DNA of 64,000 nt, taken from Bacteroidota bacterium. GTDB lineage: Bacteria > Bacteroidota > Ignavibacteria > Kryptoniales > JAKASW01. Positions 10,716-55,485 of this stretch are shown here, piece by piece. Within the stretch, counting starts at the first letter, position 1. Each line of letters begins with the position of its first letter. The notes beneath the pieces are model-generated. The model searched no databases. It was not told where the DNA came from and saw nothing but the letters and a program-made list of their open reading frames with translations. The position numbers were made by a program, and so were the translations under genes. The stretch covers positions 83,117-147,116 of the forward strand of contig JAJZNW010000055.1 in NCBI GenBank assembly GCA_021811615.1. Direction: 5' to 3'.

Positions 10716-11771
10716 TCAGCGGATGGAGAACTTGTATATCGTGGTGGAGCGGTAGGTATGCCCCGGGAGAAGGGACGTAGAGGGGAAATCGGGTTTGTTC
10801 GGGGAGTCTGGATAATGCTGTGTCTCGAGAGCGAGGGCACTTCTGTACCCGTATGCGACACCGCCTTTACCTTTTTCTGAGCCGGTCAGGAAGTTGCCCG
10901 TATAGAATTGCATCCCGGGCTCGTCGGTAAAAACAGTCATCGACCTTCCGCTCGTCGGATCGTAAAGCTCTGCCACTTTACGGACATGGTTGTTCTGGCT
11001 GTTCAGGACCCAGTTCATATCGTAGCCCCTGCAGATCTTCAGCTGTTCGTGCGCCTCGTCAATGCGAAGCCCGATAGGTGTCGGTATTCTGAAATCCATC
11101 GGAGTGCCTGCAACATTCTCGATGACACCTGTGGGGATCTGGGTGCTGTCAACCGGAGTATAGTGATCTGCGTCGATCATCAGCTCTTCACCGAGTATCG
11201 ACATCTCGGGGTTTCCGGTCAGGTTGAAGTAGCCGTGGAAAGTCATATTAATTACGGTAAGCTTGTCGGTGGTCGCCGACAGACGAATCGCAAGGGCATT
11301 GTCGGTGGTCAAAGTGAAGACCACATTTGCCGTAACGGTACCGGGGAAGCCCTGCTCACCGTCCTCGCTCACGTAAGAAAGTTTCAAAGACTCTCCTTCG
11401 GCCGCGTTCATAGGCTCGGCGGTCCAAAGCCTTGTGTGGAAACCCGCCGGCCCTCCGTGAAGGGTATTTGCCCCGTCATTCACAGGCAAATGATAACGCA
11501 CTCCATCAAGTGTGAATCGGCCCCTATCGATTCGGTTTGCAAACCTTCCGATCATCGCTCCAAAAAAACTGGAGCCCTTCAGATAGCCGTCGACAGAGTC
11601 ATAGCCGAAAGTCACATCGTCAAATTTCCCGTCCCTGTCGGGAACCAGTATGGAGACGACGCTGGCGCCAAAATCTGTTGTCTCGACAAGCATCCCATTT
11701 CCATTCCTGAGTGTATAGAGATGCGCTTCGCGTCCGTCGGGAAGTCTCCCGAATGCATTCCTAACCATCAC
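10716..11771 (-). CDS. galM: Aldose 1-epimerase (galactose mutarotase)
   Basis: 351 aa; NGMLVETTDFGASVVSILVPDRDGKFDDVTFGYDSVDGY, GRFANRI, LHGGPAGFHTRLW, HGYFNLTG. Confidence 0.93.
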   Translation of the reverse strand: MMVRNAFGRLPDGREAHLYTLRNGNGMLVETTDFGASVVSILVPDRDGKFDDVTFGYDSVDGYLKGSSFFGAMIGRFANRIDRGRFTLDGVRYHLPVNDGANTLHGGPAGFHTRLWTAEPMNAAEGESLKLSYVSEDGEQGFPGTVTANVVFTLTTDNALAIRLSATTDKLTVINMTFHGYFNLTGNPEMSILGEELMIDADHYTPVDSTQIPTGVIENVAGTPMDFRIPTPIGLRIDEAHEQLKICRGYDMNWVLNSQNNHVRKVAELYDPTSGRSMTVFTDEPGMQFYTGNFLTGSEKGKGGVAYGYRSALALETQHYPDSPNKPDFPSTSLLPGHTYRSTTIYKFSIR

Positions 11772-11884: not shown

Positions 11885-12931
<1,047 letters not shown>

Positions 12932-12988: not shown

Positions 12989-14164
12989 TCAATCGGGGAC
13001 CAAATCGGTTCCCGGCATAAGACTGCATTCATAAAGCTGCGGTATTTTGCCGGTGTCTCTCTCGTAAGACTTCCTTATTTTCGACTTGAACTCTTCGGCA
13101 GAGTCGCGTTCCACCAGGTTCAAAGTGCATCCACCGAACCCCCCGCCCATCATTCTTGCGCCGAGGACTCCATCGATTTTCGTTGCCGCATCGACCAGGA
13201 TATCCAGTTCCCTGCAGCTGACCTGATAACGATCTCTCAAGCCTTCGTGGGAAGCGTAGAGGAGTTCTCCAAATTTGTCGTAATCGTTCTGCCTCAGATA
13301 TTTGCCGGCTAAATTTACGCGCGCATTCTCTTCGACAACGTATTCACATCGGCCGTATATCATATCTCCCAATTCACCTTTATGTTCACGCAGCATCTCC
13401 GGTTCGACATCTCGAAGGCTTCGCACACCGGTGAAATATTTCCTGATAATGCCTGCACCGGTTTCACATTGTTCCCTTCTGAGATTGTATTCGGACGAGG
13501 CCAGGCTGTGTTTCACTCCCGTGTCACAAAGGACAAACTCCAGGTCCTTCCTTGTAAAAGGGATATGTTCAAACTGAAGGCTCCGGCAGTCGAGGTGCAG
13601 CGCCGACTCACCTTTACTCAGCAGGTTGGCAAACTGGTCCATGATTCCGCAACGAACTCCGACGAACTCATTCTCAGACCGCTGCGCAATTTTCGCAAGA
13701 TCTCTTCTTCCGATGCCGAGATCAAATATGCTGTTGAGAGCAAAAGCCAGTCCGGCTTCGACTCCTGCCGACGACGACATCCCCGCGCCGATCGGGATGT
13801 CTCCTGAAAAGACACAATTGAAGCCGCCGATACGATACCCTGCCTCGTTGAGCTGGTGGACTACTCCGATCAGGTAATTTGCCCATGCCTTCTTGGATTT
13901 GGCTGCTTCCCGGACATTGAATTGTATTTGGTCGTTTAGATCCAGTGAAGTCAGGGAGACGTCGGAGCCGCGGCGCGGTCCGACCGCGAGGTAAATCGCG
14001 CGGTCTATTGCCGAAGGGAGTACAAATCCTTCGTTGTAGTCAGTATGTTCCCCAATCAGATTGATGCGCCCGGGGGACCTGACTATGACCATCCTGTCGT
14101 TGCCTCCGTATGTTGATAAATATTTCCCTCGTACTAGGTCGACTATATCCGAACTAGGTTCCAA
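12989..14164 (-). CDS. galK: Galactokinase
   Basis: 391 aa; SPGRINLIGEHTDYNEGFVLPSAID, GAGMSSSAGVEAGLA, GARMMGGGFGGCTLNLV (GHMP motifs). Confidence 0.96.
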   Translation of the reverse strand: MEPSSDIVDLVRGKYLSTYGGNDRMVIVRSPGRINLIGEHTDYNEGFVLPSAIDRAIYLAVGPRRGSDVSLTSLDLNDQIQFNVREAAKSKKAWANYLIGVVHQLNEAGYRIGGFNCVFSGDIPIGAGMSSSAGVEAGLAFALNSIFDLGIGRRDLAKIAQRSENEFVGVRCGIMDQFANLLSKGESALHLDCRSLQFEHIPFTRKDLEFVLCDTGVKHSLASSEYNLRREQCETGAGIIRKYFTGVRSLRDVEPEMLREHKGELGDMIYGRCEYVVEENARVNLAGKYLRQNDYDKFGELLYASHEGLRDRYQVSCRELDILVDAATKIDGVLGARMMGGGFGGCTLNLVERDSAEEFKSKIRKSYERDTGKIPQLYECSLMPGTDLVPD

Positions 14165-14345: not shown

Positions 14346-16832
14346 TTAGCCGCCCACAAGAGGGATGAGCTTTGATTTCTCCGCTTCGATCTTCAATGTC
14401 GCGTCCCTCAGTCCGTAGCCCGTCGCCTGGAGTCTTATCTCGCCCGGCTTGCGACCGGAAAGGAGTATCACTTCGCATTTGCCGTTGAAAAGTTTCCGCT
14501 GATAACCGCCATCAGGATATTTGTCCGGCTCGTGGCTGCTCGGGTCGCCGTTTCCGACGCCGATTATTGAGCCCTGTCCTTCGGCCTGGAAGTGAACCAT
14601 ATTATCGGCAGTCGGGACTTCCCTCCCGAGCGAGTCGACGACTGTAACCTCCACCACGGATACGTCTTCACCGTTCGCGCGGATGGTGTCGCGGTCGGGC
14701 GTAAGCCGGATGGCTACCGGACGTCCCGTTGTCTCTTCTTTATCGACAAGTACCTTCCCGTTTCTCCATCCCCGGGCTTCAAGGGTGCCGGGCTCGTAAT
14801 CCACCGTCCACTCGAGATGAGAATCCCGTTTCATTACCTTCGTACCGAGACTCTTGCCGTTCAGCAGTAGCTCGACGCTGTCGCAATTGCTGAAACACCA
14901 CACGTCGATGGGCTGGCCAATCTTGCCCGGCCAATTCCAGTGAGGGAAAATATGCAATACGCTTTTATCGCTCCACCACGACTGGTAATAGTAGAAATTA
15001 TTCTTCGGGAACCCGCACACGTCCATTATGCCGAAATTGGAATTGATGTCGGGCCACTCGTAAGGTGTCGGCTCGCCGCGGTAATCGAATCCCGTCCAGA
15101 CAAACCCGCCGGCAAGGTACTTGTGCTCATCGTAGAACTTCCACCATTGCTCCGCCGTCTCGCCCCATGGTGGTGCGTTGACGTCGTAATCACTGACATA
15201 CCCTTTCGCCGTATCGTTCGCGTATTCCCCGCGTGTGGAAACTGTGCTCGCGGTCTCCGTACCGATGAGAGGCTGATCGGGATGCTGCTCGTGATATTTC
15301 TGAATATCATATACGTGATAATTGAAGCCCCGGACAGGGATCACGCTGTTGACGGCGTCATTGTATGCACCACCGTCGTTCGCCGCGAAGGTGCACGTCC
15401 TTGAAGGGTCGAGCTCTTTTTGAATCCGTATCAGCGTCTTCGCTATTCTCACGCCGACGGGAGTATCCTGCACTCCCCATTCCTCGTTGCCGATCGACCA
15501 TATGATGACCGACGGGTGGTTCCTGTCCCGGCGTATCATCCTCTTGAATTGCGAGACGTATTCCGGCGAACTGTTCAAAAGCCTGTTCTCATCCATGACG
15601 AACATACCAAGCTTGTCGCACGCGTCGAGGAGTGCGGGAGTCGGAGGGTTGTGGCTCGTTCGCCACGCGTTGCATCCCATCTCCTTCAGTTTTTTTACAC
15701 GGAAACATTGAAGCCCGTCCGGAAGCGCCGTCCCCACGCCGGCAAAGTCCTGGTGATTGCAGGTGCCCTTAATCTCGACACGCTTCCCGTTCAGGAAGAA
15801 GCCGTCGTTGCTAGTCCACCTCAATGTTCTTATTCCAAAGGTTGTTTTCACACGGTCTATTACTTTCCCGCCCGATTTTATGATTGAAACAAGCTTGTAA
15901 AGATTAGGATGGTTGGGAGACCACAATGCCGGTCGGTCGACGGTCATGCTCTGTTCGAATTTTCTCTTCTCATACGGATTCATCCTCGTTTCTGCGGTAG
16001 ATGCGCTCGCCACTATGTTCCCATGCTTGTCGAGAATAATGGATTCCACATCTAAGCGTGCCGCCGATTCCTCTCTGTTGTTCACCTTCGTCTGAACCGC
16101 TAAGGTCGCCCGGCCTCCCTGAAGGGTCGTCGTCCTTACATACGTGCCGTATATCGGGATGTGGAGCGGCGGGGTTTCAATGAGCCACACGTGCCTGTAG
16201 ATGCCAGCACCTTCGTAGAACCAGCCCTCGTAATTTTCCGCATCAACCCTGAGGACGAGGTAATTCGGCCCGCGGTAGTTGATGAAGTTTGTGACGTCGA
16301 ATGAAAAAGGGGCGTAACCGCTCATATTCTTTCCGACGAAGTTGCCGTTCAGCCAGACTATGCAGTCCCTGTATACCCCGTCGAATTGTATCACGGTTCT
16401 CTTCGTAGAGTCTTCCGCCGGCACGGTGAACTCCTTCCTGTACCATCCTATTGTGGTCGCCGGAAATTCTCCGCCGATAGGCTTGTATCCATGCCCCATT
16501 ATGGCGAAGTCTTTCACATGAACGAACGGCAGGTAAACTGCCCAGTCATGTGGAAGGTCGATCGACTGCCACGAACTGTCGTTAAACTTCGGCATGGTCG
16601 CCGCAGGGCCGATTCCCTCCTTCGCATAAATCTCACCGGACCCGTACCCGAAGTCGAGCTTCGGATCGGCAGAATTTCCGAAGTGAAATTTCCAGCCGTA
16701 GTCCATGAGAAGCTTCTGCCTGGAGATAGGTGAATTGAGATCCCCGGCTTCTTCAGCACCTTTCTGAGCCCCGAACGCAGGCAACGATCCGACTATGAGA
16801 AAGGCCACCACTGCACAAATCCGCCTTAACAT
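14346..16832 (-). CDS. GH2 family beta-galactosidase
   Basis: ORF 14346-16967, likely start at internal ATG 16830-16832 (MLRRICAVVAFLIVGSLPAFGA signal peptide); IIWSIGNEEWG and IGTETASTVSTRGEY catalytic motifs. Confidence 0.88.
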   Translation of the reverse strand: MLRRICAVVAFLIVGSLPAFGAQKGAEEAGDLNSPISRQKLLMDYGWKFHFGNSADPKLDFGYGSGEIYAKEGIGPAATMPKFNDSSWQSIDLPHDWAVYLPFVHVKDFAIMGHGYKPIGGEFPATTIGWYRKEFTVPAEDSTKRTVIQFDGVYRDCIVWLNGNFVGKNMSGYAPFSFDVTNFINYRGPNYLVLRVDAENYEGWFYEGAGIYRHVWLIETPPLHIPIYGTYVRTTTLQGGRATLAVQTKVNNREESAARLDVESIILDKHGNIVASASTAETRMNPYEKRKFEQSMTVDRPALWSPNHPNLYKLVSIIKSGGKVIDRVKTTFGIRTLRWTSNDGFFLNGKRVEIKGTCNHQDFAGVGTALPDGLQCFRVKKLKEMGCNAWRTSHNPPTPALLDACDKLGMFVMDENRLLNSSPEYVSQFKRMIRRDRNHPSVIIWSIGNEEWGVQDTPVGVRIAKTLIRIQKELDPSRTCTFAANDGGAYNDAVNSVIPVRGFNYHVYDIQKYHEQHPDQPLIGTETASTVSTRGEYANDTAKGYVSDYDVNAPPWGETAEQWWKFYDEHKYLAGGFVWTGFDYRGEPTPYEWPDINSNFGIMDVCGFPKNNFYYYQSWWSDKSVLHIFPHWNWPGKIGQPIDVWCFSNCDSVELLLNGKSLGTKVMKRDSHLEWTVDYEPGTLEARGWRNGKVLVDKEETTGRPVAIRLTPDRDTIRANGEDVSVVEVTVVDSLGREVPTADNMVHFQAEGQGSIIGVGNGDPSSHEPDKYPDGGYQRKLFNGKCEVILLSGRKPGEIRLQATGYGLRDATLKIEAEKSKLIPLVGG

Positions 16833-16950
16833 GACGTAGCTCCAAGGTTTATGATTACGGTTGTGACGGAACATTCGAATGACACTTGAGACCGAGTTGC
16901 CTGTGACGGCAAGTCTGCCAGGTCCTTTTGCTTGATGGAAACTGATGATC

Positions 16951-18312
16951 CTACTTGAGCAAGACAAGTTTGCGCATCGCGAGAAAGTCCGATGCGCTCA
17001 TCCGGCAGAAATATACTCCGCTTGCCAGCCCGTTCGCCGACCAAGTTAGACTGTGGGAGCCCTGGTTCTGAAATCCACTGACAAGCTGCTTGACTTCCTG
17101 CCCCAGTACATTATATATGTCGATCGAAACGTTCGAACGAACCGGAAGATCGTATTGGATTGTCGTGCTGGGATTGAATGGGTTCGGATAGACATGAAGG
17201 TTGAATCCTTCGGGACGTGTCGGTCCTGCTACGGCAGTTGCGTACTTCCCCAGGAAAGCATCGAGTGCCACAGTGGGTTCTTCGTTGGCGGGATTCCAGG
17301 CTCCCATCTGGTAACCCTGCCAGTTGTAACACTCCGGCTCCCAATAGAACACACCCAGCCCGCCTACAGACTTTGTCTTCGCGATGAGATCCATCAGATA
17401 GTGATTCGCCGTTACGGGCTGATTGTACGCGTACCCCGCTTCGACAACCATCACTTTCTTATGATATCTCGCAATCATATCCTTCATCGTCACAAGTGTA
17501 AGGCTGTCGTCGGTTTGCCAGGGGAGGTTCGCCCAGTACGGGTACGCAGACATTCCGATGACATCCCACCTTGCTCCGTACTTCTCGAGACCGTCGAACA
17601 TCCACCTGTACATTGTGTCGTCATAGGAATTCGACAAGTGAACGATCACCTGCGTGGTGCTGTCGATAGCTTTAACCGCTGCGTAACCGGTGTCGATCAT
17701 CTGAGCGAAGTTGGCCATATGTGTTGTAGCCATTCCCAGCGGCCACATCATCCCATTGTTGGTCTCATTTCCAATCTGCACCCACTTCGGAACAACGCCC
17801 GCCATTTTCAGCGTGTCCATTACACCGTAAACATAGTCATAGAGATTGGTGAGAAGCTGCGGGAGCGAATCGTTGGCCCATGCGGCCGGCGTATACTGAT
17901 GAGACGGATCGGCCCATGTATCGCTGCAATGAAAATCTATGAGGATATCGAAGCCCATGCTGTCGGCTTCATGGGCCAGTGCCGTGACGTATTTTGTATC
18001 GCAGTATCCTCCTTTCGGATTCACCCATGCCCTGATACGGATCGCATTTATACCTTCCTCTTTCAATATGTCAAGGCAATTCATCTTGACACCTGACTGG
18101 TTCTTGAAGACATACCCGGCAGCCTCCATTTGCGGCAGCCAGCTCACGTCGGCGCCATTTGCAAACTGGGCAGCGGCATCGGGGGGATGCACGACAACCA
18201 TCAGAAGAAGTAAGATGAGCCCGCTGCCAATCCGCTTCACAGTTGAAGACACGATCGGTAATTTGGCGGAAACAGCCGGCTCCGCCCGTTCCATTTCAAT
18301 TATCTTTCGCAT
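16951..18312 (-). CDS. GH53 endo-beta-1,4-galactanase with T9SS C-terminal sorting domain
   Basis: 453 aa; GADVSWLPQMEAAGYVFKN, DFHCSDTWADPSHQYTPAAW, WVQIGNETNNGMMWP, MVVEAGYAYN; C-term VYPNPFNPSTTIQYDLP...GVYFCRMSASDFLAMRKLVLLK. Confidence 0.93.
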   Translation of the reverse strand: MRKIIEMERAEPAVSAKLPIVSSTVKRIGSGLILLLLMVVVHPPDAAAQFANGADVSWLPQMEAAGYVFKNQSGVKMNCLDILKEEGINAIRIRAWVNPKGGYCDTKYVTALAHEADSMGFDILIDFHCSDTWADPSHQYTPAAWANDSLPQLLTNLYDYVYGVMDTLKMAGVVPKWVQIGNETNNGMMWPLGMATTHMANFAQMIDTGYAAVKAIDSTTQVIVHLSNSYDDTMYRWMFDGLEKYGARWDVIGMSAYPYWANLPWQTDDSLTLVTMKDMIARYHKKVMVVEAGYAYNQPVTANHYLMDLIAKTKSVGGLGVFYWEPECYNWQGYQMGAWNPANEEPTVALDAFLGKYATAVAGPTRPEGFNLHVYPNPFNPSTTIQYDLPVRSNVSIDIYNVLGQEVKQLVSGFQNQGSHSLTWSANGLASGVYFCRMSASDFLAMRKLVLLK

Positions 18313-18347: not shown

Positions 18348-20846
18348 CTAGCGGGCAATACTCTCGACCGTTGCCGGGCCATTTACTGGCCTCTCCGAAA
18401 TAATCTCAATCTCGGCACCTTTCAAGCCTTTGGAGGTGGCAATCAGGCGGATCGGGCCTGCACTCCGTCTCGATTTGACAACCGCAAGCGCGAGACCGTT
18501 GAATGCTTTTCGCTCAGGACTTTTCATCGGTGTGGTGTCGACAGGATTTCCATTATCGGTTCCATCCAACGTCCCTTCGCCTTCAACTTTGAAGTCGATG
18601 AGATTGTCCGCCGTTGGGACAACCCATCCATGTTTGTCCACAATTTCCACTTTGACATCCGCAATGTCTTCGGCATCGGCCTTGATCCTCGTTCTGTCAG
18701 CCGAAAGCCTGATTGCATAAGGTACGGATGTAGTGTGTATGATGTCAGTGACAGTTTTCCCGTGCCATTTGCCGACGGCCTCAATTGTTCCTGGCTCGTA
18801 AGGTACGCTCCACGAAAGATGAAGATCCGAAGTCGTGGGGTATACGTACGGATGTGCATATTTGTCCCAGGCACCCGCATGCCCCTGCTGTGGAAACACG
18901 TATGATTCCATTCCGAACGGTTTGCCGTCCAGGTAGAGCTGCACGCTGTCGCAGTTAGTATAGGCGATGACTGGAATGACCTGGCCTTCGTGTCCCTTCC
19001 AGTTCCAATGAGGAAGCAGATGGAGCACCGGTTTGTCGGTCCATTGACTTTGATAAAAGTAATAGCTGTCCTTCGGGAAGCCGCACAGATCTATCACGCC
19101 GAAGCTCGAGCTCTTGGCAGGCCACTCCGCCTCGCCGAGGTAGTCGATACCGGTCCACATGAAATCGCCAATGACATAATCATGGATCGCTTCGAATTCC
19201 CACAGCTGCTCGGCCTCGATCATGTTTGTCGTGTAATTCAGGTAGCTCATGAACGGGCTCGATAGTGTGTCCCATGGCATTTCGTAATATCCCCTGATGC
19301 TTGGGATCGATGTGCATTCCGTACCGATCATTTTCCAATTGGGGTGATTGTGCCTGTCGATGCTGTAATAGAGTTCTCTACGCTTCCCCCAGCGGTCCAC
19401 GTAATTATATCCGACTATGTCTTCTGTATTGAGAAAAGAGAGTTTAGCGGGATACGTCGGGTCGGCGATATGATCGCTGGCAACTGTAACCGGCCTCGTC
19501 GGATCCTCCCTGTGAAAAGTGTCGATCAGCTCCTTCAGTACGGCAGTCCCGGAATCCGAACCCTGTTCGAGAACTTCGTTGCCCGCACTCCATAAGACGA
19601 TACTCGGATGATTCCGGTCGCGCCTGATCATGGAGAGCAGATCTGATTTCCAGTTCTTTTTGAAATAGATATGATATCCATACTTGACCTGGCTCTTAGG
19701 GATTGCCCATTCATCGAAAGCTTCGTCCATCACCAGGAACCCCATCTTGTCGCAAAGTTTGAGAAATTCCGGCGTCGGAGGATTATGCGCTGCACGGATT
19801 GCATTGCAGCCCATCGCCTTGAGAAGCTTCAGCCGCCTCACCCATGCTTGCACAGGTACCGCGACTCCGAGACAGCCAGCGTCGGGATGAAGGCATACGC
19901 CATGCATCTTCACATGCTTTCCATTCAGGAAAAAACCCTTGTTGACATCATAACGTATGCTTCGGATTCCAAAAGGAGATGTGAGGCTGTCTATGACTTT
20001 CGTCCCGTCGAGCAGTATCGATTTCATCCTGTACATAGAAGGGCTCTCTATCGACCAGAGCGAAGGTGAAGACACGTTCAAAGTCTGTTCGACTTTAGTT
20101 CGTCCCAACTGTACTAATGAGACCGGAGTCTCGATCGATGTCACAACTTCGCCGGAACTGTTCACGATAGACGAACGCAGCTCGATATTCTCGGCTGAAG
20201 TAAATCGATTGTCAATCGTAGTCTGAACTCTAACTGTAGCGGAGGCAGAATCGACATCCGGCGTCGTGATATATGTCCCCCACTGGGCAATGTGGACCGG
20301 ACCGGTAATATTGAGCCAAACGTTGCGGTAGATTCCGGATCCGGAATACCACCGGCTGTTCGGCTGAAGGGAGTTGTCGACTCTTACCGCGATCACGTTT
20401 TCTCCCCGCCTGATATACTGTGTAAGATCGTAATAGAAACTCGTGTAGCCGTACGGATGATTGCCGAGAAAGTGTCCGTTGATCCAGACGTCGCTGTTCA
20501 TGTAAACACCCTCGAACTCTATCCAGCAATCGTCGCCTTTGTGAAATGTCGGAAGGACAAAATGATTTCGATACCAACCGATCCCAGTAGGAAGGTAACC
20601 GCCTGCTCCCCCGGTCGCCGCGTTCTTGTCGAACTTCCCCTCTATGCTCCAGTCGTAAGGTATGTCGACCGTCTGCCACTTGCTGTCGTTAAATGCGGGC
20701 GCCTCTGCCCCCTTGACGTCGGCATGAATGAATTTCCAGTCGTAGTCCATCAAGAGGTGCTGGCGGACTGGTATGACGCCGCAGATTCCTCGTACAGCCG
20801 ACAGTTCGAACAATGCCAATGCCAGGATCGGTATCAACTTTTTCAT
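18348..20846 (-). CDS. GH2 family beta-galactosidase
   Basis: 832 aa; signal peptide, IPYDWSIEGKF, SIVLWSAGNEVLEQ, IGTECTSIPSIRGYY. Confidence 0.9.
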   Translation of the reverse strand: MKKLIPILALALFELSAVRGICGVIPVRQHLLMDYDWKFIHADVKGAEAPAFNDSKWQTVDIPYDWSIEGKFDKNAATGGAGGYLPTGIGWYRNHFVLPTFHKGDDCWIEFEGVYMNSDVWINGHFLGNHPYGYTSFYYDLTQYIRRGENVIAVRVDNSLQPNSRWYSGSGIYRNVWLNITGPVHIAQWGTYITTPDVDSASATVRVQTTIDNRFTSAENIELRSSIVNSSGEVVTSIETPVSLVQLGRTKVEQTLNVSSPSLWSIESPSMYRMKSILLDGTKVIDSLTSPFGIRSIRYDVNKGFFLNGKHVKMHGVCLHPDAGCLGVAVPVQAWVRRLKLLKAMGCNAIRAAHNPPTPEFLKLCDKMGFLVMDEAFDEWAIPKSQVKYGYHIYFKKNWKSDLLSMIRRDRNHPSIVLWSAGNEVLEQGSDSGTAVLKELIDTFHREDPTRPVTVASDHIADPTYPAKLSFLNTEDIVGYNYVDRWGKRRELYYSIDRHNHPNWKMIGTECTSIPSIRGYYEMPWDTLSSPFMSYLNYTTNMIEAEQLWEFEAIHDYVIGDFMWTGIDYLGEAEWPAKSSSFGVIDLCGFPKDSYYFYQSQWTDKPVLHLLPHWNWKGHEGQVIPVIAYTNCDSVQLYLDGKPFGMESYVFPQQGHAGAWDKYAHPYVYPTTSDLHLSWSVPYEPGTIEAVGKWHGKTVTDIIHTTSVPYAIRLSADRTRIKADAEDIADVKVEIVDKHGWVVPTADNLIDFKVEGEGTLDGTDNGNPVDTTPMKSPERKAFNGLALAVVKSRRSAGPIRLIATSKGLKGAEIEIISERPVNGPATVESIAR

Positions 20847-20971: not shown

Positions 20972-21001
20972 CCGCCTGCAGCCGGTGAGGACCGCAGGCG
21001 G
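20972..21001 (-). terminator. Rho-independent terminator candidate downstream of the TBDT/beta-helix operon
   Basis: Minus strand CCGCCTGC...GCAGGCGG 8-bp stem followed by TTCCTTTTC, immediately after the stop at 21013. Confidence 0.65.
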
Positions 21002-21012
21002 AACCAGAGTTG

Positions 21013-22761
21013 TTACTTAAGGAGAAGCATCTTTTTGGTTATTTCGTTTGTTCCCTGGCGAAGGGTATAGAAATAAACTCCACTGGCAAACCTATCCATA
21101 CTGACATTGTAGGTGTACTCGCCGGCTGGTTTATATCCCTGGTCGACTACCTGGACGACCTGCCCGAGAACGTTGTAAACAGTCAGGCTCATCACTCCTG
21201 CGTGCGCCAGACTAACCTTTATGTCCGTTGTCGGGTTGAATGGGTTGGGATAGTTCTGGCTTAGGGAGAACTTTGCGGGTACCTGTGGTCCGACAGTCTT
21301 TACCGCGTTGACCTTACCTTCTTCCCAAAGCTTGAGCTGCGCCGGGAACCAATTGAGATCGCCCAAAGAAAACCCATCGGAACCGACCAGGTTGGCTGTA
21401 TAGGCAAGATTCTCCGGAACCGGGTAGCCCTGCTTGGAGGCCCAGTCCTGAGGCACATTCGGCCATGAGGATGTCAGCGAAGGAGGATCCGAAAGCGGAT
21501 ACACATATGGGCGGAAACCGTTGGCAGATCCGCCGTGAGCCCAAACGGTGTCGACAAAAGCTGCCATGTTGCCTGCGGCCAGCTGTACGAGAGCAGAGTT
21601 GAAGCCGGGATCCACGCTGTCATTGTTTGCCACGTCGACGTATGGCCAGATAGTCTTGTTGGTCAGCATGCTGGCTGGATATGCACTTATGAAATCGGGC
21701 GGACGAAGCGGAACATATGGCGTATCTATCTTGGCAGAATTCAGATTGTTCCAGTTGTCCGTTATCTGACTCGGCCAGAAGTAAGCGTTGTTCGTGATCG
21801 TAATGTGCCTGTCTGCCTCCGTTAGGTTGTAGGGGGACGAATTGAGAGTTGTCAACGAATCCAAGAGAATCAAACCCGATCCCCAACCGCCGGCAGTGGG
21901 ATTCCACGCTACAGGATAGGCCGCCGCAGAGACGCCGTAGAAGATGTTGTTCTTTATCGTCGCGTTGGTCATCTGTCCCATATCGAATACTCCACCCTGA
22001 CCGGAGAGGAAAATGGTGTTGTGTTCGAAATCGAGGTACTTGCAACCGAAGCCTGAAGAACCGAGGACGTATCCACCGGTCAGGAAGAAGGTGTTATTTA
22101 CGAACTTCGCGGTGTCGCAGGGGTACGTTCCGGGATCAACCCACGCGAACCCGGGATTCTGCGGATTGTCGTCCTGGTTATTCCTGAACTCGCAGTTGGT
22201 GATGAAGAAACTTTCGTAATCATGATTGTAGGTGTCGACGATATTCGGTGTCCCGGCGCCAGAAATGTTTTCAAAAATGCAGTGGTCGAAGATATACACA
22301 TCGCTGTCACCGACCGGTTCGGCGAATCGTCCGGTAAACGAAACGCTATCGGTGCGTGTACCGAGGAAGTAAATCCCTTTCAGCATCAGCGTGTCGTTTC
22401 CCTGTGGATTGAAGAAATAACCGATTGAGCTGTTGTCCTGTGCTATCGAGGGAGCGACCACGGGAGGATGTCCAGTCGTGGGATTGATGTAGCCCACGAC
22501 TGTGATGTTTCCCTTCGCGGATACGGGAGCGGTCATGTAGTAGACGGTATCCAGACTGCCGGTCGGTTTAAGCAAGAATACCGTGTTGGGTTTAACGAAA
22601 CCGGTCGAGGTTGTATCAGCGTTGATGACGTTGTTGATATTCCCGGGGGGTAATGGCGATACGACAACAGTATCAGCACTTTGCGCGGCAAACGATGCCG
22701 ATGGCGCAGCTACAAGTGACGCGACAGCGACCAGGAGCAGCGACATAATAGCTGATTTCAT
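21013..22761 (-). CDS. Secreted parallel beta-helix-like protein with T9SS C-terminal sorting domain
   Basis: Start at ATG 22759-22761 (MKSAIMSLLLVAVASLVAAPSASFA); repeated FDHCIFENIS / ITNCEFRNN / FVNNTFFL / FEHNTIFL / IKNNIFYG rungs; C-term LSQNYPNPFNPTTDIKV...SGVYFYTLRQGTNEITKKMLLLK. Confidence 0.75.
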   Translation of the reverse strand: MKSAIMSLLLVAVASLVAAPSASFAAQSADTVVVSPLPPGNINNVINADTTSTGFVKPNTVFLLKPTGSLDTVYYMTAPVSAKGNITVVGYINPTTGHPPVVAPSIAQDNSSIGYFFNPQGNDTLMLKGIYFLGTRTDSVSFTGRFAEPVGDSDVYIFDHCIFENISGAGTPNIVDTYNHDYESFFITNCEFRNNQDDNPQNPGFAWVDPGTYPCDTAKFVNNTFFLTGGYVLGSSGFGCKYLDFEHNTIFLSGQGGVFDMGQMTNATIKNNIFYGVSAAAYPVAWNPTAGGWGSGLILLDSLTTLNSSPYNLTEADRHITITNNAYFWPSQITDNWNNLNSAKIDTPYVPLRPPDFISAYPASMLTNKTIWPYVDVANNDSVDPGFNSALVQLAAGNMAAFVDTVWAHGGSANGFRPYVYPLSDPPSLTSSWPNVPQDWASKQGYPVPENLAYTANLVGSDGFSLGDLNWFPAQLKLWEEGKVNAVKTVGPQVPAKFSLSQNYPNPFNPTTDIKVSLAHAGVMSLTVYNVLGQVVQVVDQGYKPAGEYTYNVSMDRFASGVYFYTLRQGTNEITKKMLLLK

Positions 22762-22933
22762 GATCAAGCATCCTTTCTTTGTTTTTTTTGATTTGAACAG
22801 AAACTTTCCGATGGTGTTCGACGAAACAGCTGCCGGCATAGTATTCTGTGTCCAGGCTGGCCGGCGAACGGGACTTATACCAATCTCAATCTCATGGGGC
22901 TCTTTCCTCCTCTTTGAGTTTGCCTTCATTTGA

Positions 22934-25900
22934 TCATTCCAATACCCAGCGAATGCCCAAGTCCGCGGTGAGGCCATAGTCGGACTCCGACTGAGGAAAT
23001 CCCGACCCCCTCACTACATAAACATCGTTTGCACTGTTGAGATTGTAGAGGTCGAGATAAACTTGAGCGTCGGTCCATGGCAACCCCTGTTTAACCGAAA
23101 TGTCCCAGCGAAGGTATGTCGCCTTATCCACACGAAGTGAGTTATAGAAATCCGTTTGATTGTACACTTCAGACTGGTATATCATCGAAGCCAGTATCGA
23201 AAACCGGCCGTAGTCATATCCGATTGAAAGGTTGGCAATGTCGTTGGGCTGTTGAATCAGTCTGTCCGTATAGGTTGTGTCGACATGGATGACAGGGAAT
23301 GGATAGACGGGCGAATGTTCCGTGACGCTGTAAGGGTACTTAGCGCTCGAGAATATGTGCGTGAAGTTGACATTCAGCACCAAGCCGCTTAAAGGCCCGG
23401 GCAGATACCAGAAATGGGTCTGCCACTCAGCTTCGATACCCCAGAGGTTTACCGGGTACGGATTGTTGATGTAAGTCGTTAGAGAGAACGTCTTCGTATT
23501 GGCCGGCACTCCGGGATAGAGCGAAGGATTGGAGATGTAAGTCTGCTGGCTGAACATAAGGTTATCGATCCTCTTCAGGAACGGATCGACGGCCAGCAAG
23601 CCTATGGTATTGTCGTAAGCTGCGACCTGGAGATCGTAGTTGTGAGAGAACGCCGGACTCAGAGCATAGTTGTTCCAGACGACATAATGTCCGCTGTTGC
23701 TGGAGACATCCAGCCTCGGGGTGATTTGGTAGTAGTTCGGATATGCGAGCGTATTGGTGTACGAACCCCGGATGCTCAGCCAGACGAACGGGTCGTATTT
23801 CACATTGATGTCCGGGAGGAGATACCCATGGTATTCGTCTTTGGTTACCCATGTATGAGGGAGGGTACGCGGATAAGGATTAGTGGCGTCGGCATTGCCG
23901 ATGAATTGCGGCGCGGTATACGAAGTCTTGAGACCCTGGTACCGCGCACCCCCGACGACTGTGACCTGAGGCCCGAGGTTGATTGTCGCCATTAGATATT
24001 CGGCGCTTCTGAATTCGTTACCGTAGTAATCGCTCGCTAGACTGCCGTATACATCCGGGATATAATCAGGGACGGTTTCCGGAGTCGCCGTCTGTGCGCC
24101 CAGGACTTTCAATTCAGAGATGATTGTGCTCAGAGGACCCATTCCTACGCCTGAAAACATGGCGTAGTCGCCGTTGAGAAACTTGCCGTAATTCATGTTC
24201 GGATTATAGAACCCGGCGAGCGGAAAGCTTGTCGAGGCGGTGGCATTCGTGTCGATATTGTAAGGAGGCTGCGCCAACCAGGGAAGCGCGCGGACTAACT
24301 GGTTCCGGCGTCCCGAGGCGTAACCGCCGTACAGGCTGCCATATCCGTCTTCGAAATTATAGTACCGCGTAGTGTACCTGTACATCGCTCCTGCTTTCAA
24401 CGCGACAGAAATTTCGCCGGACAGATTGAAATGCCTTTCGAGATCGATGGATCCCTGAGTATCGTTCTGCTTGTTATAGCTGCGCCATGTGGAATTGCCC
24501 GCCCAATACATGCTGTTCAGGTCTATGAGCTTCTGGGCCGCGCTCGCAATCTGGATGGGGTTCATATTATCGGGAATGTTGCTAGTGCCTGCCGACAGCT
24601 GCTGGAAAGTAACGTTCCAGGCATTCGGGGTAAGATTGTCAGAGTACGCGTTGGAAAGCTTCACGTCCACTTTTATGGAACTAAGTATCTGCTCGTATTG
24701 CAGGATGTCCGTCACCAGATTGATGGAATTGGATGAGAATTGAGTGCCGAAAAGTATATCATTACCGTAATTGGCAAGGTCGTAAGTCTGACTGTGAGTA
24801 TCTGTCGTTTGGTTACCGTGGCTGATCAAATTCACTAATTCGATTTTCCCGTTCGGCAATCTATAGTCAAGTGTCAATGTACCATCATATCTTTGTTCCA
24901 CTGAAGGGGCAAACGAGAGATTCAGGCTCCCGAGTACTATGGAGTCCGGCACGTCCTGTTTATTCGGCTGGTAATAAGATCCACCAAGCTGGTCGGACGT
25001 CAGAGTCTGTCTTTGTGCAATACCCTGGACAAATACACCGAAGCGGTTATTGAAGAAGCGTTTCTCGACGCTGGCGACGAACTTATAATCGTCGTAGGAG
25101 CTCATGAGATTGTTATAAGCCCCCTGCGCAAGGATGGAAACCCTTGGGGCGCCGGTTGGTGTGGCCTGCGCCTCCCTCAGATTGAAATTTACCGTGCCTC
25201 CGAGAACGGCGGCGTCCATATCGGGGGTGACCGTTTTGTATACTTCGATTCCCTGAAGTGAATTCGATGAGATCATGCTGACGTCCACTGCCCGGCCACC
25301 GGGCGTGTTCGAAGGGGTTGAATAAGCGCCGCCTGCAGTGATGGTTCCGCCGAAATTGGCAGGCATCTGCACACCGTCGATGGTGATTTGATTGTACTGC
25401 GGCTGAAGCCCGCGTATCACGATCTGTGTGGCCTCCCCGCCGTTTCTGATCAATGAAATTCCCGGCAGACGACCCACTGATTCGGCCGCGTTCGCATCGG
25501 GAAGGGCTTGTATCCTTGCGGATGATACCACATTAACCTCGTTGTTGGAGGTGAGTTGCTGGTTGATGGCCGCGTTCTGTCCGCTCGCCTGAGCCGTCAC
25601 CACGACCTCTTTGGTGCTAACGCCTACAGCCTCAAGCTTCAAGTCCTTGGTAAGATGCTCGTTGTCTTTGATGTCGATCTTCTCCGAAAGCGATCTGTAA
25701 CCGATATAGGATGCCTTCAGGGTGTATGAACCGGCGGGAATGTTGGAAATAATATAATGTCCGTCCAGGCCCGTCGCCGCACCCATGGATGTCCCTGCAA
25801 GCTGAACGGTGACACCAGGAAGCGGGTCTCCAGTGGCAGCGTCTGTCGCTCTACCTTCGATCCTTCCCGTGGCGCTCCACGACAACCCAGACGTCAGCAA

Positions 25901-25960
25901 AACGAAAAAGATGGCGCAGAGAACAGTATTTGTTTTCATCATATTGATACTTACCTCCAT
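22934..25960 (-). CDS. TonB-dependent receptor with N-terminal carboxypeptidase-regulatory-like domain
   Basis: 1008 aa; IEGRATDAATGDPLPGVTVQLAGTSMGAATGLDGHYIISNIPAGSYTLKASYIGY; plug ALPDANAAESVGRLPGISLIRNGGEATQIVIRGLQPQYNQITIDG; C-term beta-barrel ending GLTADLGIRWVLE. Confidence 0.93.
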   Translation of the reverse strand: MEVSINMMKTNTVLCAIFFVLLTSGLSWSATGRIEGRATDAATGDPLPGVTVQLAGTSMGAATGLDGHYIISNIPAGSYTLKASYIGYRSLSEKIDIKDNEHLTKDLKLEAVGVSTKEVVVTAQASGQNAAINQQLTSNNEVNVVSSARIQALPDANAAESVGRLPGISLIRNGGEATQIVIRGLQPQYNQITIDGVQMPANFGGTITAGGAYSTPSNTPGGRAVDVSMISSNSLQGIEVYKTVTPDMDAAVLGGTVNFNLREAQATPTGAPRVSILAQGAYNNLMSSYDDYKFVASVEKRFFNNRFGVFVQGIAQRQTLTSDQLGGSYYQPNKQDVPDSIVLGSLNLSFAPSVEQRYDGTLTLDYRLPNGKIELVNLISHGNQTTDTHSQTYDLANYGNDILFGTQFSSNSINLVTDILQYEQILSSIKVDVKLSNAYSDNLTPNAWNVTFQQLSAGTSNIPDNMNPIQIASAAQKLIDLNSMYWAGNSTWRSYNKQNDTQGSIDLERHFNLSGEISVALKAGAMYRYTTRYYNFEDGYGSLYGGYASGRRNQLVRALPWLAQPPYNIDTNATASTSFPLAGFYNPNMNYGKFLNGDYAMFSGVGMGPLSTIISELKVLGAQTATPETVPDYIPDVYGSLASDYYGNEFRSAEYLMATINLGPQVTVVGGARYQGLKTSYTAPQFIGNADATNPYPRTLPHTWVTKDEYHGYLLPDINVKYDPFVWLSIRGSYTNTLAYPNYYQITPRLDVSSNSGHYVVWNNYALSPAFSHNYDLQVAAYDNTIGLLAVDPFLKRIDNLMFSQQTYISNPSLYPGVPANTKTFSLTTYINNPYPVNLWGIEAEWQTHFWYLPGPLSGLVLNVNFTHIFSSAKYPYSVTEHSPVYPFPVIHVDTTYTDRLIQQPNDIANLSIGYDYGRFSILASMIYQSEVYNQTDFYNSLRVDKATYLRWDISVKQGLPWTDAQVYLDLYNLNSANDVYVVRGSGFPQSESDYGLTADLGIRWVLE

Positions 25961-27270: not shown

Positions 27271-28464
27271 TCATTTAACCTGACCTTCCCTGTCAATAGT
27301 AGCTGCATTGAGACTATCCGGCGTGAACAGCGCCGGCCCTGGTGTCGCATAGATGTGCCACAAATCGTACTCCGGGGCCCAGTACATTACCCCCAATCCA
27401 TCCGGAGCTTCTCTCACCGTTCTGACCAATGCCACGAGAAACTGCAGCCGCCCTTCAGGTGTAACCGGCCAGAGCATGTCCGGATTATTCTTGAAATGAC
27501 TGGGGCCGTAACCTGTCTCTGCAACAAGGAATGGTTTGTGAAATATGGCGGCACAGCTGTCCATGTTTTCACGCAACTGAGACAGCGTACCGTGACGCCA
27601 CGGCGGGTAGAAGCTCTCCGCTATTATGTCATAATTTATATGTTCTTTGTTCAGATGATCGAAGAACCATTTTGTAATCTTCCAATTGCCTCCCTGGTCG
27701 ATGTGGATCGCGATAAGCGGCGGAGTATTTCCCGCAGCCCTCATCACTCCCTGAATTCCGGCTTTGAGCAAACCGGCCAAACGTTTCCATTGCTTTGCCG
27801 AGTCGTACGGTCCGGGAGGGTTATACAGCTTTGATCCCGGCTCCTTCAACTGAGCTACCGGCCACGCGACGCCGCGAGTTATCTCGTTGCCGATCTGGAC
27901 CCAATCAGGCATCGCTCCGGCCTCCTTAAATCTTTTTATAGTATCGTAAGCATACATTTCCCACTTGATCCTCAGACTGTCGTAACTGAGGCCTCGCCAC
28001 GCGACGGGTATCTCCTGGTGCTGGGGATCGGCCCAGGTATCCGAGAAATGCATATCGAGGAGAAAGACGGCTCCAAGCTCCTTGATCTTTTTCGCCAGGG
28101 GAATCGCCGCAGCGACTGTATTGTCCGGTGCCTCTCTGACAGGCGAGACGAAGACCCTCAGCCGAAAAGCGTTCCAGCCATTCTTCGCGAGGATAGCCAG
28201 CTCGCTGCCAGGTTTGCCGTTATCCATGTATGTGATCTTCGGCCCGAACGAAGGTGCGTCCAGCGCACTTATGTCCGCCCCGAGAACAAACTTCGGTTCC
28301 TGCGCATGTGTAATAGCGGAAAACGAAAGCAGCGAGGCAACGACAACCGATAAAGTGGCTGTGGAGAGTCGGAACTCTCCTGGACGTCCCCGGTGCGATT
28401 TCCGTCGTGTACGGGTGAAAAGAGTGGCAGATGTCATCATGATCATTCCCTTAAGTGATGTCAT
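27271..28464 (-). CDS. GH53 endo-beta-1,4-galactanase
   Basis: 397 aa; LGADISALDAPSFG, LDMHFSDTWADPQHQEIPVAW, WVQIGNEITRGVAWP, FLVAETGYGP, MYWAPEYDLW. Confidence 0.93.
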   Translation of the reverse strand: MTSLKGMIMMTSATLFTRTRRKSHRGRPGEFRLSTATLSVVVASLLSFSAITHAQEPKFVLGADISALDAPSFGPKITYMDNGKPGSELAILAKNGWNAFRLRVFVSPVREAPDNTVAAAIPLAKKIKELGAVFLLDMHFSDTWADPQHQEIPVAWRGLSYDSLRIKWEMYAYDTIKRFKEAGAMPDWVQIGNEITRGVAWPVAQLKEPGSKLYNPPGPYDSAKQWKRLAGLLKAGIQGVMRAAGNTPPLIAIHIDQGGNWKITKWFFDHLNKEHINYDIIAESFYPPWRHGTLSQLRENMDSCAAIFHKPFLVAETGYGPSHFKNNPDMLWPVTPEGRLQFLVALVRTVREAPDGLGVMYWAPEYDLWHIYATPGPALFTPDSLNAATIDREGQVK

Positions 28465-28535: not shown

Positions 28536-31079
28536 TTATTTATCGACAACTAATTGGTACTCCGGAACCAGTGTCAGTGATTTCAATTCGGCTGCCTGTC
28601 CACTCTTCGGAAACTGCGGCCACATTCCCTTCTCCAGAAATACCGGAGCATCTTTTCGTAGAGGAAGAATATCCAATTGCAGCGGCCCCGCCCGCAAGTA
28701 GTTCTCGAAACGCTTGAGGCCCACTTTCCATGTCGTCCCGTTGTAGAAATTGTCCTCGAGCAATTTGCCGTCGGAATAGAGGCGGGCCACATCACCAAAG
28801 TATCTCGTGTCTAGGAACAGCTCGCTCAGGTCGGCAGGAAGCTCGTGCGGCAGGTTCACTCTCCATTTGGCAGCCAGCCGGTATACGCTGTCCGGCGGTG
28901 CTTCCGCAACTCTGTGATTCTTCCGCCACGCGACCCAGGGGCCAAGTTTCACAGGTGGTACCCGGCCCGCGTTTTGAAGCTGCGTCAGTTTCAATTTAAC
29001 ATCGGCGCGGGGAACGCTTGCCGAGAACAGGGTGATCCCGTCGCTCTGAGTCGAAGTTCTGATCACGGAGCTTCCGCGTAGAACCGTGGACACTCTCGGA
29101 TGAAAACGGAAATTGAATTCGGGGTCTCCTACTGACTGCAAATAGATATGCGACTTGCCGGAGTAAAACGACGAGTGTGTAAAGAGAAGATGATAGCTCC
29201 CGCCGATATTCACTCTCCATGCCGACTCCGCCTCTTCCTCTGAAAGAAGTACCACCTTGACTTCAGACCCGGAATGCGGCTGTAGAATAATCGCCGGTCG
29301 CAACCCCGTCTCGAGGCCAGTCACGAATCGCGTTGATCCTTCGTCGCTGACCCGGCCGCTTACGGCCGTCATCGACGAGAATGTAGCGGAGTTGAAAGCA
29401 AACTGTGGGACAATTCCGGGGGTCGCGACGAAGAAGTACATGGTTTCCCGACCGGACTTTATCCTGGTGAACAGTTGGGCGGTGCTGTACTTCAGCTGAA
29501 TGCCGGACATATCGAAATTGAAAGGCCAAATGAAATAATCACCTGACGGAACGGATATAGGGACGTCAGGGATTTTCAATATTTCATGAGGAAGCCTGAC
29601 TTCGACCTGGACACTGTCCCAGTTGGGGAGTGGATAATATCGTACATAGTTGTTCCAGAACAGGAATCCTTCCCGGCCATTGGTGCGGACTGAGAGACGC
29701 GGGACGGAGAAATCCGCGGGACTCTTGGGGCGGATTTCCGGCGGACGTACCACTAAAGGAGCAAGCTCGTTCCCGAACTCATTCATGAAGTAGTTAAATA
29801 TCTTGATCTTTCGAAGAGACTCACGCTCTTGACCGAATTCCCCCAGTGGGGCCTGGAAATCGTACGACTTCACCGGCAGATCGTTCGGGTATCCTGTCAC
29901 CTGGGACTCCTGAAGAGTCGAGAGCTTCCCCTGCGGGTTCTCGCCGCCCTGAAACATGTACGTACCGTACATGTTGACGCCCGATCCGAGCATCACGGGA
30001 TACATCGCTGCAACATCGTTCGGTCTTATTATCGGTCTGCGGTGGTAGGTATCCTCGATACCACCTCCCATTTCTGCGGTAAGGAAAGGGGTGGACTCAT
30101 TGCTTGTCAGAGCGTCGATCGAACTTCCCGATTTACCTTCGCCGACCATTTCAATGTTTCCTGAGACGCGGCTGCCGAAACGAAATGCGTATACTTCATT
30201 CGGCGGCAATTGGTTCCTCGACCCGTCCCACGGCGCGTCCATGTAACCGCCGTACACGGGCAGAACCGCTCCTTTAGGGACCACCGCACCATCCCAACCC
30301 GTGACGACATACAACGGCACGTCGAGTCCCGCCTGGATCGCAAGCCTCTTGAGTGCCAGAATATATTCGTCGCCTGCATGAGGCCCGCGCATTGAATATT
30401 CATTGTCCAGCTGAATTCCAATTATTGGCCCGCCATCTTTCCACAAAAGCCCTTTGACCTGTTCGCCGATTTGGTCGTAGAAAGTCTTGACGTATCTCAT
30501 GAATTCGGGTACATCCTTACGGAGATCATTCTTCGGAACTTTTTTCATGATCCAGTTAGGAAGCCCCCCGTTCCTCACCTCGGCGTGGACCCAGGGTCCT
30601 ATCCGAAGTTGGACGTAAAGTCCGTTTTCCGCGCATGATTCTACGAAACGACGGAGATTCCTCCGGCCTGACCAATCGAACTTACCTTCAACTTCCTCCT
30701 GATGGATCCAAATTACATATGTAGAGACAACGTTGACGCCGGCGGCTTTCATCTTCAAGAGTTCCTGGTTCCATAAGTCCTCAGGGACACGCGAATAATG
30801 GAATTCACCCGCGACGGGTAGCCATGGCTTCCCGTCAAGCATAAGATACCTGTTGTTCAATGTGAGCGATCTTCCGTCGGGCGCGACATGAGAACCTTCG
30901 GTGAAATCGGCCTCCGAGGGGGGTGGCACTGTCTCGGTGGCGTTTACGATGATGGGATGAGGAGAAACTTTTGTCTGCGTTTGTGCAGCCACAAAGACCG
31001 GAACGGCAAGGACGATCAACAACAGAGACGACCTGCAAATGCCGCGGACGTCGTAGAAGGCTTCAAGAGGGCTTATCAT
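28536..31079 (-). CDS. GH35 family beta-galactosidase
   Basis: 847 aa; NNRYLMLDGKPWLPVAGEFHYSRVPEDLWNQELLKMKAAGVNVVSTYVIWIHQEEVEGKFDWSG, LRIGPWVHAEVRNGGLPNW, IGIQLDNEY. Confidence 0.92.
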   Translation of the reverse strand: MISPLEAFYDVRGICRSSLLLIVLAVPVFVAAQTQTKVSPHPIIVNATETVPPPSEADFTEGSHVAPDGRSLTLNNRYLMLDGKPWLPVAGEFHYSRVPEDLWNQELLKMKAAGVNVVSTYVIWIHQEEVEGKFDWSGRRNLRRFVESCAENGLYVQLRIGPWVHAEVRNGGLPNWIMKKVPKNDLRKDVPEFMRYVKTFYDQIGEQVKGLLWKDGGPIIGIQLDNEYSMRGPHAGDEYILALKRLAIQAGLDVPLYVVTGWDGAVVPKGAVLPVYGGYMDAPWDGSRNQLPPNEVYAFRFGSRVSGNIEMVGEGKSGSSIDALTSNESTPFLTAEMGGGIEDTYHRRPIIRPNDVAAMYPVMLGSGVNMYGTYMFQGGENPQGKLSTLQESQVTGYPNDLPVKSYDFQAPLGEFGQERESLRKIKIFNYFMNEFGNELAPLVVRPPEIRPKSPADFSVPRLSVRTNGREGFLFWNNYVRYYPLPNWDSVQVEVRLPHEILKIPDVPISVPSGDYFIWPFNFDMSGIQLKYSTAQLFTRIKSGRETMYFFVATPGIVPQFAFNSATFSSMTAVSGRVSDEGSTRFVTGLETGLRPAIILQPHSGSEVKVVLLSEEEAESAWRVNIGGSYHLLFTHSSFYSGKSHIYLQSVGDPEFNFRFHPRVSTVLRGSSVIRTSTQSDGITLFSASVPRADVKLKLTQLQNAGRVPPVKLGPWVAWRKNHRVAEAPPDSVYRLAAKWRVNLPHELPADLSELFLDTRYFGDVARLYSDGKLLEDNFYNGTTWKVGLKRFENYLRAGPLQLDILPLRKDAPVFLEKGMWPQFPKSGQAAELKSLTLVPEYQLVVDK

Positions 31080-37906: not shown

Positions 37907-37948
37907 AAAGTATGGGAGATGAACCTTAAGGTAAGAGGCATCAGAAAG

Positions 37949-40246: not shown

Positions 40247-40293
40247 AATGATTAGCCTCCTGGGCAAAGTCGATAAGTCTTCACAACTATGAT

Positions 40294-41574
40294 TCATGGG
40301 ATTAAATATTCCGGTGCACCGCTCAGCCTGCAGCTCACTTCCCTGTCTCTTACCTTGAGCTGCACCGAGTGCCCTTCTTCACCGACACACGCGATGTCGG
40401 CCTGGTTAGAAGTCAAACCAAAAAGTGAGACCGGAATGCTGACGGTGTGAGCAGTACCGGTTGTCCAGCCAGCAATCCGCGTTAAACCTTCCGCGTTCCT
40501 AAAGGTCAAAACAAAATCTGCGCTGTCGCCTGTGTTGTAACGCCGCGCGATATGGAAGCCTGATAGCTCGTGCGTCATGGTGCGTACCGCGAAATACGAC
40601 GGCTTGTATTTCAGATCATAAGTCACCACGCCCCTGTTTTGGCCTTTTACGTTCACGTTAGGACCATCATTTTTCCAGTCGTACCAGATGGAAAGATGGA
40701 CGCCGCAATAGAGATTGAACAACTGCTGCCTGACTAAGTAATCGGCCTGAGTTCGATATGAAACGCCTTTTGAATAGGTAGTATATCCCCATTCGCTGCT
40801 GATGAGTGGGATATCCTTTCCACGGGGTTCATACCGAGCGATGAGCTTTTGGAGTTTCCGAAACTGCGGGCCAACCGTTTCAGGTGGGAGGCTTCCGCGA
40901 TACGGATGGACGCTGAAGCCGTCAATGTAACGAAGGAGCCCTGTTCTTAGAACCGGCTTCAGGAAATTCCATTGAAACCGCACGGCGCCGGGCGCTATGA
41001 TGGTAGCGCCCGGATCAGATTCGCGAATAGCCTTACATGCCGAAAGAGCCAGAGTAATGTATTGCTTCACATCCGGACGCGGTTTCCAAAAAGCCCTGTT
41101 GTTCGGTTCATTCCAGATCTCCCAGACAATATGGTGTCCTTCGAAATGTCTGACGGCCGCAGCTGCCCATTCAGAGAAAGCAGCGACGTCGGCCGGATCG
41201 ACCGGCCCCCAATTCTTTCGTGGACCTGAATATAGCGGGTTGTTATAATCGAGAATATAGAGAGCTCGCAACCCGCGACGTTCCAGGTTGGATGTCAAAC
41301 TATCGTATGGAGCCCAGTCATACACGCCTTTCCTCCTCTCCGTCCTCGCCCAGTGAAAATCGGTCCGAATGAACTTGAAGCCCGCGGCTGCGATCATGTC
41401 GAGATCACGGGTGTGTCCGGTGACGAAGTGTATGTTAACCCCGACACAATAGGGGATGACGGGAGGAGGTACTCCTGATACCGGTTCCGGAGTTTTTGGT
41501 TGAGCCGCCATTACCGGCAGCACCGTAAAAGTCAGGAAGACAAATAGAAAGGTACTTGAGGGCTTATTAAGCAA
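40294..41574 (-). CDS. Clan-A glycoside hydrolase (GH39/GH5-like), single-domain paralog
   Basis: 426 aa; GVNIHFVTGHTRDLDMIAAAGFKFIRTDFHWARTERRKGVYDWAPYDSL, IVWEIWNEPNN, LISSEWGYTTYS. Confidence 0.82.
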   Translation of the reverse strand: MLNKPSSTFLFVFLTFTVLPVMAAQPKTPEPVSGVPPPVIPYCVGVNIHFVTGHTRDLDMIAAAGFKFIRTDFHWARTERRKGVYDWAPYDSLTSNLERRGLRALYILDYNNPLYSGPRKNWGPVDPADVAAFSEWAAAAVRHFEGHHIVWEIWNEPNNRAFWKPRPDVKQYITLALSACKAIRESDPGATIIAPGAVRFQWNFLKPVLRTGLLRYIDGFSVHPYRGSLPPETVGPQFRKLQKLIARYEPRGKDIPLISSEWGYTTYSKGVSYRTQADYLVRQQLFNLYCGVHLSIWYDWKNDGPNVNVKGQNRGVVTYDLKYKPSYFAVRTMTHELSGFHIARRYNTGDSADFVLTFRNAEGLTRIAGWTTGTAHTVSIPVSLFGLTSNQADIACVGEEGHSVQLKVRDREVSCRLSGAPEYLIP

Positions 41575-41590
41575 GACGATTTCGGCCTTC

Positions 41591-43012: not shown

Positions 43013-43015
43013 AGT

Positions 43016-45340: not shown

Positions 45341-45365
45341 ATTCTACTCCAGTGCTTGATTATTC

Positions 45366-50712: not shown

Positions 50713-50803
50713 GACATTTCTCCTCATGTATGTTAAGTTCAGTGAACTCATTCACGCAGGTCGAAGACTCGAGTGACGTGGCGATCGCACCTGTCTTGTA
50801 CCT

Positions 50804-54028: not shown

Positions 54029-54030
54029 GA

Positions 54031-55164: not shown

Positions 55165-55485
55165 CTCGCAACCTTCCTAATAATTGAACATCGGATTACA
55201 GCCTGGGCCCAACGCTATTGTCCGGTGAATCGTTTCCATCCAGAGCTTCGCCATCTCAATCGCATCGAAGCTCCATTCTTCGGTTCCGGGCGATAGTCGG
55301 ATGGCGGCTGTGGGACTTCATATTGAGTGTTGCCAGCACTCCGCCATATTTTGATGCTCCTATACAAGACGGCTGAGGATGCGCTTACCCCTACATTATT
55401 CACAGCGGAAGGGAAGATTAATTCGATCGTAACGGGAAAGGAACATACGGCGGGGGTAATGAGCCCTCACTTCGGAACGGGCTGT

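Follow-up and report, generated by a model that had tools for sequence, protein, structure and literature searches.

The window analysed here is a stretch of 64,000 nucleotides (bases 83117-147116 of contig 63) from a genome assembly of 4.49 Mb in 150 contigs. It contains two copies of an arrangement in which the gene for a TonB-dependent receptor is followed by a gene for a beta-helix protein with a T9SS tail. No Rfam match was found within the window. Copy 1 comprises the following features.

22934-25960, minus strand: TonB-dependent receptor of the TIGR01782 type, 1008 amino acids
21013-22761, minus strand: beta-helix partner with T9SS tail, 582 amino acids from its likely start
20972-21001, minus strand: terminator-like hairpin of 12 bp, directly 3' of the partner gene

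The mechanical open reading frame of the copy 1 partner (21013-22977) encodes 654 residues. Judged from the sequence, the start is likely to be at 22761 rather than 22977, giving a protein of 582 residues, because a ribosome-binding-like AAAGGA precedes ATGAAATCAGC and a signal peptide, recognised by eye, follows. With this start, about 170 nt separate receptor and partner. The copy 1 receptor has a CarboxypepD_reg-like domain, a plug, and a TIGR01782 region that scored 310.1 bits, right at the cut-off of 310 and just reaching it. The SusC/RagA model TIGR04056 matched only the N-terminal part of the copy 1 and copy 2 receptors, at 62.0 and 59.3 bits, respectively, far below its cut-off of 368.25. 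Both partners carry the T9SS type A tail of model TIGR04183 (47.1 bits for copy 1 and 43.6 bits for copy 2; cut-off 23); apart from this tail, the copy 1 partner matched Beta_helix below threshold and nothing else. The genes, the tail, and the AlphaFold2 fold described below thus bear out the claim, made in an earlier note on this DNA, that a TonB receptor is directly followed by a secreted beta-helix protein of the T9SS.

Copy 1 is surrounded by genes for galactan and galactose metabolism.

28536-31079, minus strand: GH35 beta-galactosidase-like enzyme
27271-28464, minus strand: GH53 galactanase-like enzyme, upstream of copy 1
18348-20846, minus strand: GH2 beta-galactosidase-like enzyme
16951-18312, minus strand: GH53 galactanase-like enzyme with T9SS tail
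14346-16967, minus strand: GH2 enzyme
12989-14164, minus strand: galactokinase
11885-12931, minus strand: galactose-1-phosphate uridylyltransferase
10716-11771, minus strand: aldose 1-epimerase (GalM)

The region reads as a complete beta-1,4-galactan locus; the earlier note had described it as rich in galactan glycosidases. Orthologous pairs, 63-74% identical to copy 1, occur at five loci (L105, L106, L110, L111, and L138). A GH53 gene lies just 3' of the pair in all five, and in four of them its T9SS tail was recognisable; GH2 is also present at L105, L106, and L110. This retention of GH53 and GH2 with the orthologous pairs argues that the copy 1 branch tracks galactan. One orthologous galactan-type locus (L143:5559-12490) retains its flanks but lacks the receptor and most of the beta-helix gene, owing either to a deletion or to an assembly gap.

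Copy 2 and the genes upstream of it are arranged as follows.

55486-56079, minus strand: ECF sigma factor
54031-55164, minus strand: FecR-type anti-sigma factor
50804-54028, minus strand: TonB-dependent receptor with an STN-like domain (TIGR01782, 325.3 bits, above the cut-off of 310)
48979-50751, minus strand: beta-helix partner with T9SS tail

Excluding the tails, the copy 1 and copy 2 beta-helix proteins are 42% identical. The ECF sigma factor, FecR, and STN-like receptor domain at copy 2 (50804-56079) are the components of FecIR-type signalling; no regulator of the ECF/FecR type adjoins copy 1. The region after copy 2 (35885-48810) encodes DUF2961, GH92, phosphoesterase, alpha-galactosidase, and GntR-regulator proteins as well as two GH5-like proteins, one with a T9SS tail, and this enzyme set differs from that of copy 1. 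An open reading frame of 1863 residues at 56957-62548 seems, by eye, to have an aminotransferase-type domain in its middle.

The earlier note had also claimed that the window lacks a SusD-like gene. This claim stands: neither the window nor the rest of its contig contains a match to the SusD/RagB profiles (PF07980 and PF14322). Elsewhere in the genome, the only SusD matches are weak, and each lies beside a true SusC gene (contigs C133 and C25); SusD matches per genome in the genus number 0-2. The two true SusC/SusD pairs of the source genome are at L081:11119-15868 and L082:631-5408. No glycosidase was apparent by eye near either pair in the stretches retrieved, and these pairs may therefore serve other substrates. 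We considered and rejected a scenario in which SusD was lost from the locus and replaced, as the receptor is of the TIGR01782 type, another subfamily than SusC. A structural model of the receptor, of lower quality than that of the partner (pLDDT 74), resembles the classical receptors HasR, PhuR, PfeA, and FecA in a Foldseek search, with HasR as the top match; no SusC appears among the best 50 matches, a statement that applies to those 50.

Pairing of the two families is the rule in this genome. TIGR01782 identified 16 full receptors, and a beta-helix profile built without the tail identified 16 loci; 14 of the 16 receptors adjoin a beta-helix member and 14 of the 16 members adjoin a receptor. 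We estimate that chance would produce less than one such adjacency in a genome of some 4,000 genes, and this reciprocal adjacency excludes chance pairing. The unpartnered receptors lie beside glgC (contig C45) and beside BNR-repeat-like proteins (contig C9), neighbours named by eye, and the beta-helix genes without a receptor are on contigs C89 and C55. The stretch L079:7886-18930 on C89 of the source genome encodes a 1322-residue beta-helix member without a receptor, close to a gene for a PorU-like T9SS sortase.

The pairing extends well beyond the source genome. Among 61 genomes of relatives (metagenome assemblies labelled Bacteroidetes, Kryptoniota, Ignavibacteriae, or Melioribacter), 21 contain the beta-helix family, with up to 25 matches in one genome, and the same pairing of receptor and beta-helix protein recurs across the genus. 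A receptor lies within two genes for 78 of the 82 members in the retrieved loci; of the four unpaired members, one is cut between retrieved stretches, one is at a contig edge, and one has a receptor broken by a stop. An in-frame TAA interrupts the receptor gene that adjoins a beta-helix gene at L120:4651-7665. In a sample of the phylum (395 genomes), all 36 loci drawn are paired, a count that follows correction of two wrong calls of open reading frames. Pairs also occur in three more phyla, Latescibacterota, Calditrichota, and Poribacteria; the profile scan of contigs used an alignment of five closer beta-helix members. In Latescibacterota and Poribacteria the order is flipped, the partner preceding the receptor, and conservation of adjacency despite this flip argues for selection on linkage. 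Neither outcome that the earlier note named as refuting its reading, a SusD homologue in this locus or a lack of conserved pairing in other genomes, was found. The SusD-free module is conserved and co-diverging in glycan loci, and its occurrence in several phyla means that it is not an oddity of this locus.

Receptor and partner share their history. Tree distances for the two families correlate with r=0.94 over 70 pairs, a value reached by none of 2000 permutations, and with a coefficient of 0.91 among 13 pairs of the source genome (none of 5000 permutations). Linked genes that duplicate together would show this correlation too, and these values therefore demonstrate matched histories rather than contact. 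Terminator-like hairpins, counted as perfect stems within 90 nt after a gene, were found behind 13 of 78 partner genes, 0 of 81 receptor genes, and 4 of 366 other genes. Because hairpins follow the partner and never the receptor, the two genes behave as one unit.

AlphaFold2 gives a right-handed beta-helix for the copy 1 partner, in a model of good quality (pLDDT 86, pTM 0.90). In a comparison with solved structures, as proposed in the earlier note, the non-catalytic C-terminal domain of the polysaccharide lyase BcAlyPL6 (7dmk 426-747) clearly outranked all other matches (Z 29.6; rmsd 2.7 across 300 residues). The equivalent domains of further two-domain PL6 lyases came next, with Z of about 24. 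The family profile also selects 7dmk by sequence, weakly (E 0.0013). In PL6 enzymes the active site is in the N-terminal domain, and substrate access and binding have been suggested as roles for the C-terminal domain (PMC11381880); weak lyase activity has been reported for that of BcAlyPL6 (PMC8618178). In searches of 37 members at E up to 1, no polysaccharide lyase or glycoside hydrolase family was matched, and the catalytic PL6 domain was likewise absent from the matches. Membership in the PL6, PL1, or GH28 enzyme families was rejected on this basis. A database-defined family also seems unlikely, since only generic Beta_helix, tail, and stray DUF matches were found. DUF4957 weakly matches two of the 37 members and DUF5123 one (best E 0.011 and 0.001, respectively); copy 1 is not among them. 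The best-conserved residues are mostly frame positions of the beta-helix (N168, T198, N222, N246, N299, P359, and G441), D190, H221, and R292 being the main polar exceptions. Among the 11 long members (836-892 residues), six have a CBM35-like module above the Pfam cut-off, located between beta-helix and tail (L174, L175, L177, L187, L194, and L198); the match is weak in four others and absent in one.

Other pairs adjoin a range of enzymes, including GH18 and GH76 proteins with T9SS tails, GH8, and GH3, as well as combinations of GH94 with an MFS transporter, GH130 with a sodium-solute symporter, and GH2 with an Nramp-like transporter. In one branch PPIases follow the pair (L071 and L203), a hint that some pairs do not serve glycans, and the pair at L070 is followed by an amino acid permease. 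The stretches L071:826-7118 and L203:5676-11807, with similar sizes at L204-L206, encode a PPIC-type PPIase and a large protein without a Pfam match. This branch, present in the source genome and also in a distantly related family of the phylum, is perhaps a non-glycan use of the module.

We consider it probable that the pair is an outer-membrane module for glycan import, in which the beta-helix protein is a T9SS-exported capture partner at the cell surface that does a SusD-like job with an unrelated fold. That the beta-helix protein binds glycans, touches the receptor, stays at the surface, and hands over ligand is what we infer. In this mechanism, the TIGR01782 receptor would be the TonB-powered pore. 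Surface enzymes, at copy 1 the T9SS-tailed GH53 galactanase, would cut the polymer, and the beta-helix partner, exported to the surface by the T9SS, would capture the released oligosaccharides and pass them to the receptor. TonB energy would then drive import of the fragments, and the GH2 and GH35 enzymes together with the Leloir pathway would consume the galactose. As for the export machinery, the genome has two SprA matches (TIGR04189) above cut-off and PorU-like matches below cut-off.

Several observations count against a capture partner: joint duplication alone can give co-divergence, beta-helix folds are typical of polysaccharide-active enzymes and weak lyase activity has been reported for the closest one (PMC8618178), some pairs lie beside PPIases rather than glycan enzymes, and two receptors and two beta-helix proteins are unpaired. 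The chief rival explanation sees in the beta-helix protein a secreted enzyme (lyase, hydrolase, or esterase) whose oligosaccharide products feed the adjoining receptor, which would make the pair an ordinary enzyme-transporter operon. Polysaccharide-active proteins make up most of the solved right-handed beta-helices in the fold list, the three polar residues noted above are well conserved, and T9SS-tailed enzymes are common in the same loci. We nevertheless think this explanation unlikely, as the 37 members match no catalytic family, the best fold match is a PL6 domain without an active site, conservation is concentrated at positions that frame the helix, and one family is found beside very different enzyme sets, unlike an enzyme of single specificity.

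The pairs might instead be general nutrient importers. In many branches the partner would then bind peptides, cofactors, or metals, and the association of copy 1 with glycans would be just one specialisation. The PPIase branch and the permease at L070 fit such a role, as does the likeness of the receptor model to heme and iron receptors, which mirrors the set of structures that have been solved. This possibility strikes us as quite unlikely, given that glycan enzymes adjoin most inspected pairs as well as copy 1 and its orthologues and that long members carry CBM35-like modules. It is also conceivable that the receptor assists in export or display of the beta-helix protein instead of being assisted by it in import; in Myxococcus, protein secretion is documented to need a TonB-dependent transporter (PMC6434023). 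The beta-helix protein has its own T9SS tail, however, the genome has the translocon SprA, and orthologous pairs keep the same glycan enzymes, all of which make a role in export highly improbable.

As a candidate importer with a surface capture partner, the pair resembles SusC/SusD (RagA/RagB) in being a two-gene module of a TonB pore and an extracellular partner (a location that is predicted here), in occurring as many paralogous pairs per genome, each with its own glycan enzymes, and in the CarboxypepD_reg-like domain of the receptor. It differs in that the receptor scores 62 bits against a SusC cut-off of 368 and in that a T9SS-tailed beta-helix takes the place of the helical lipoprotein SusD. 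HasR/HasA and TbpA/TbpB likewise combine a classical TonB receptor with a protein partner that supplies its ligand, a hand-over that is proposed for the present pair. In those systems, the ligands are heme or iron and the partner folds are unrelated to the beta-helix partner. The C-terminal beta-helices of the PL6 lyases BcAlyPL6 (7dmk) and AlyGC (5gkd), the closest solved folds to the partner, are fused to a catalytic N-terminal domain, whereas the partner stands alone, T9SS-tailed, beside a receptor.

Uptake of carbohydrate by TonB receptors without SusD has precedents. In the CUT loci of Xanthomonas, SusD-free TonB receptors that take up carbohydrate lie beside enzymes, as here, and the available text of that report mentions no conserved beta-helix T9SS partner (PMC1790865). 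Loci for polysaccharide utilization in Flavobacteriia with glycan enzymes, no SusD, and a receptor too unlike SusC have been noted and called incomplete, again with no partner family named in the text available to us (PMC6298971). Our search of the literature, which covered papers outside subscription journals and preprint servers, found no described T9SS beta-helix partner of TonB receptors. The suggestion in the earlier note that this is an undescribed uptake design must therefore be narrowed: SusD-free TonB glycan uptake is itself already known, and what we have not found described is the conserved family of T9SS beta-helix partners.

Glycan uptake loci of Bacteroidota are usually recognised and classified by their SusD, and the partner family has no Pfam or NCBIfam name of its own. 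We see the evidence as evenly balanced on the broader proposal that TIGR01782 receptors and T9SS beta-helix proteins form a second class of paired TonB importer, present in several phyla and independent of SusC/SusD, in which the partner sets specificity and many "incomplete" polysaccharide utilization loci are in fact complete. If the import model is true, many uptake loci in environmental Bacteroidota, Latescibacterota, and relatives would have been missed or called incomplete, and substrates could be predicted in a new way from the beta-helix paralogue. Whether TonB import served by a partner has more than one origin becomes testable, and the T9SS would have a direct link to nutrient import.
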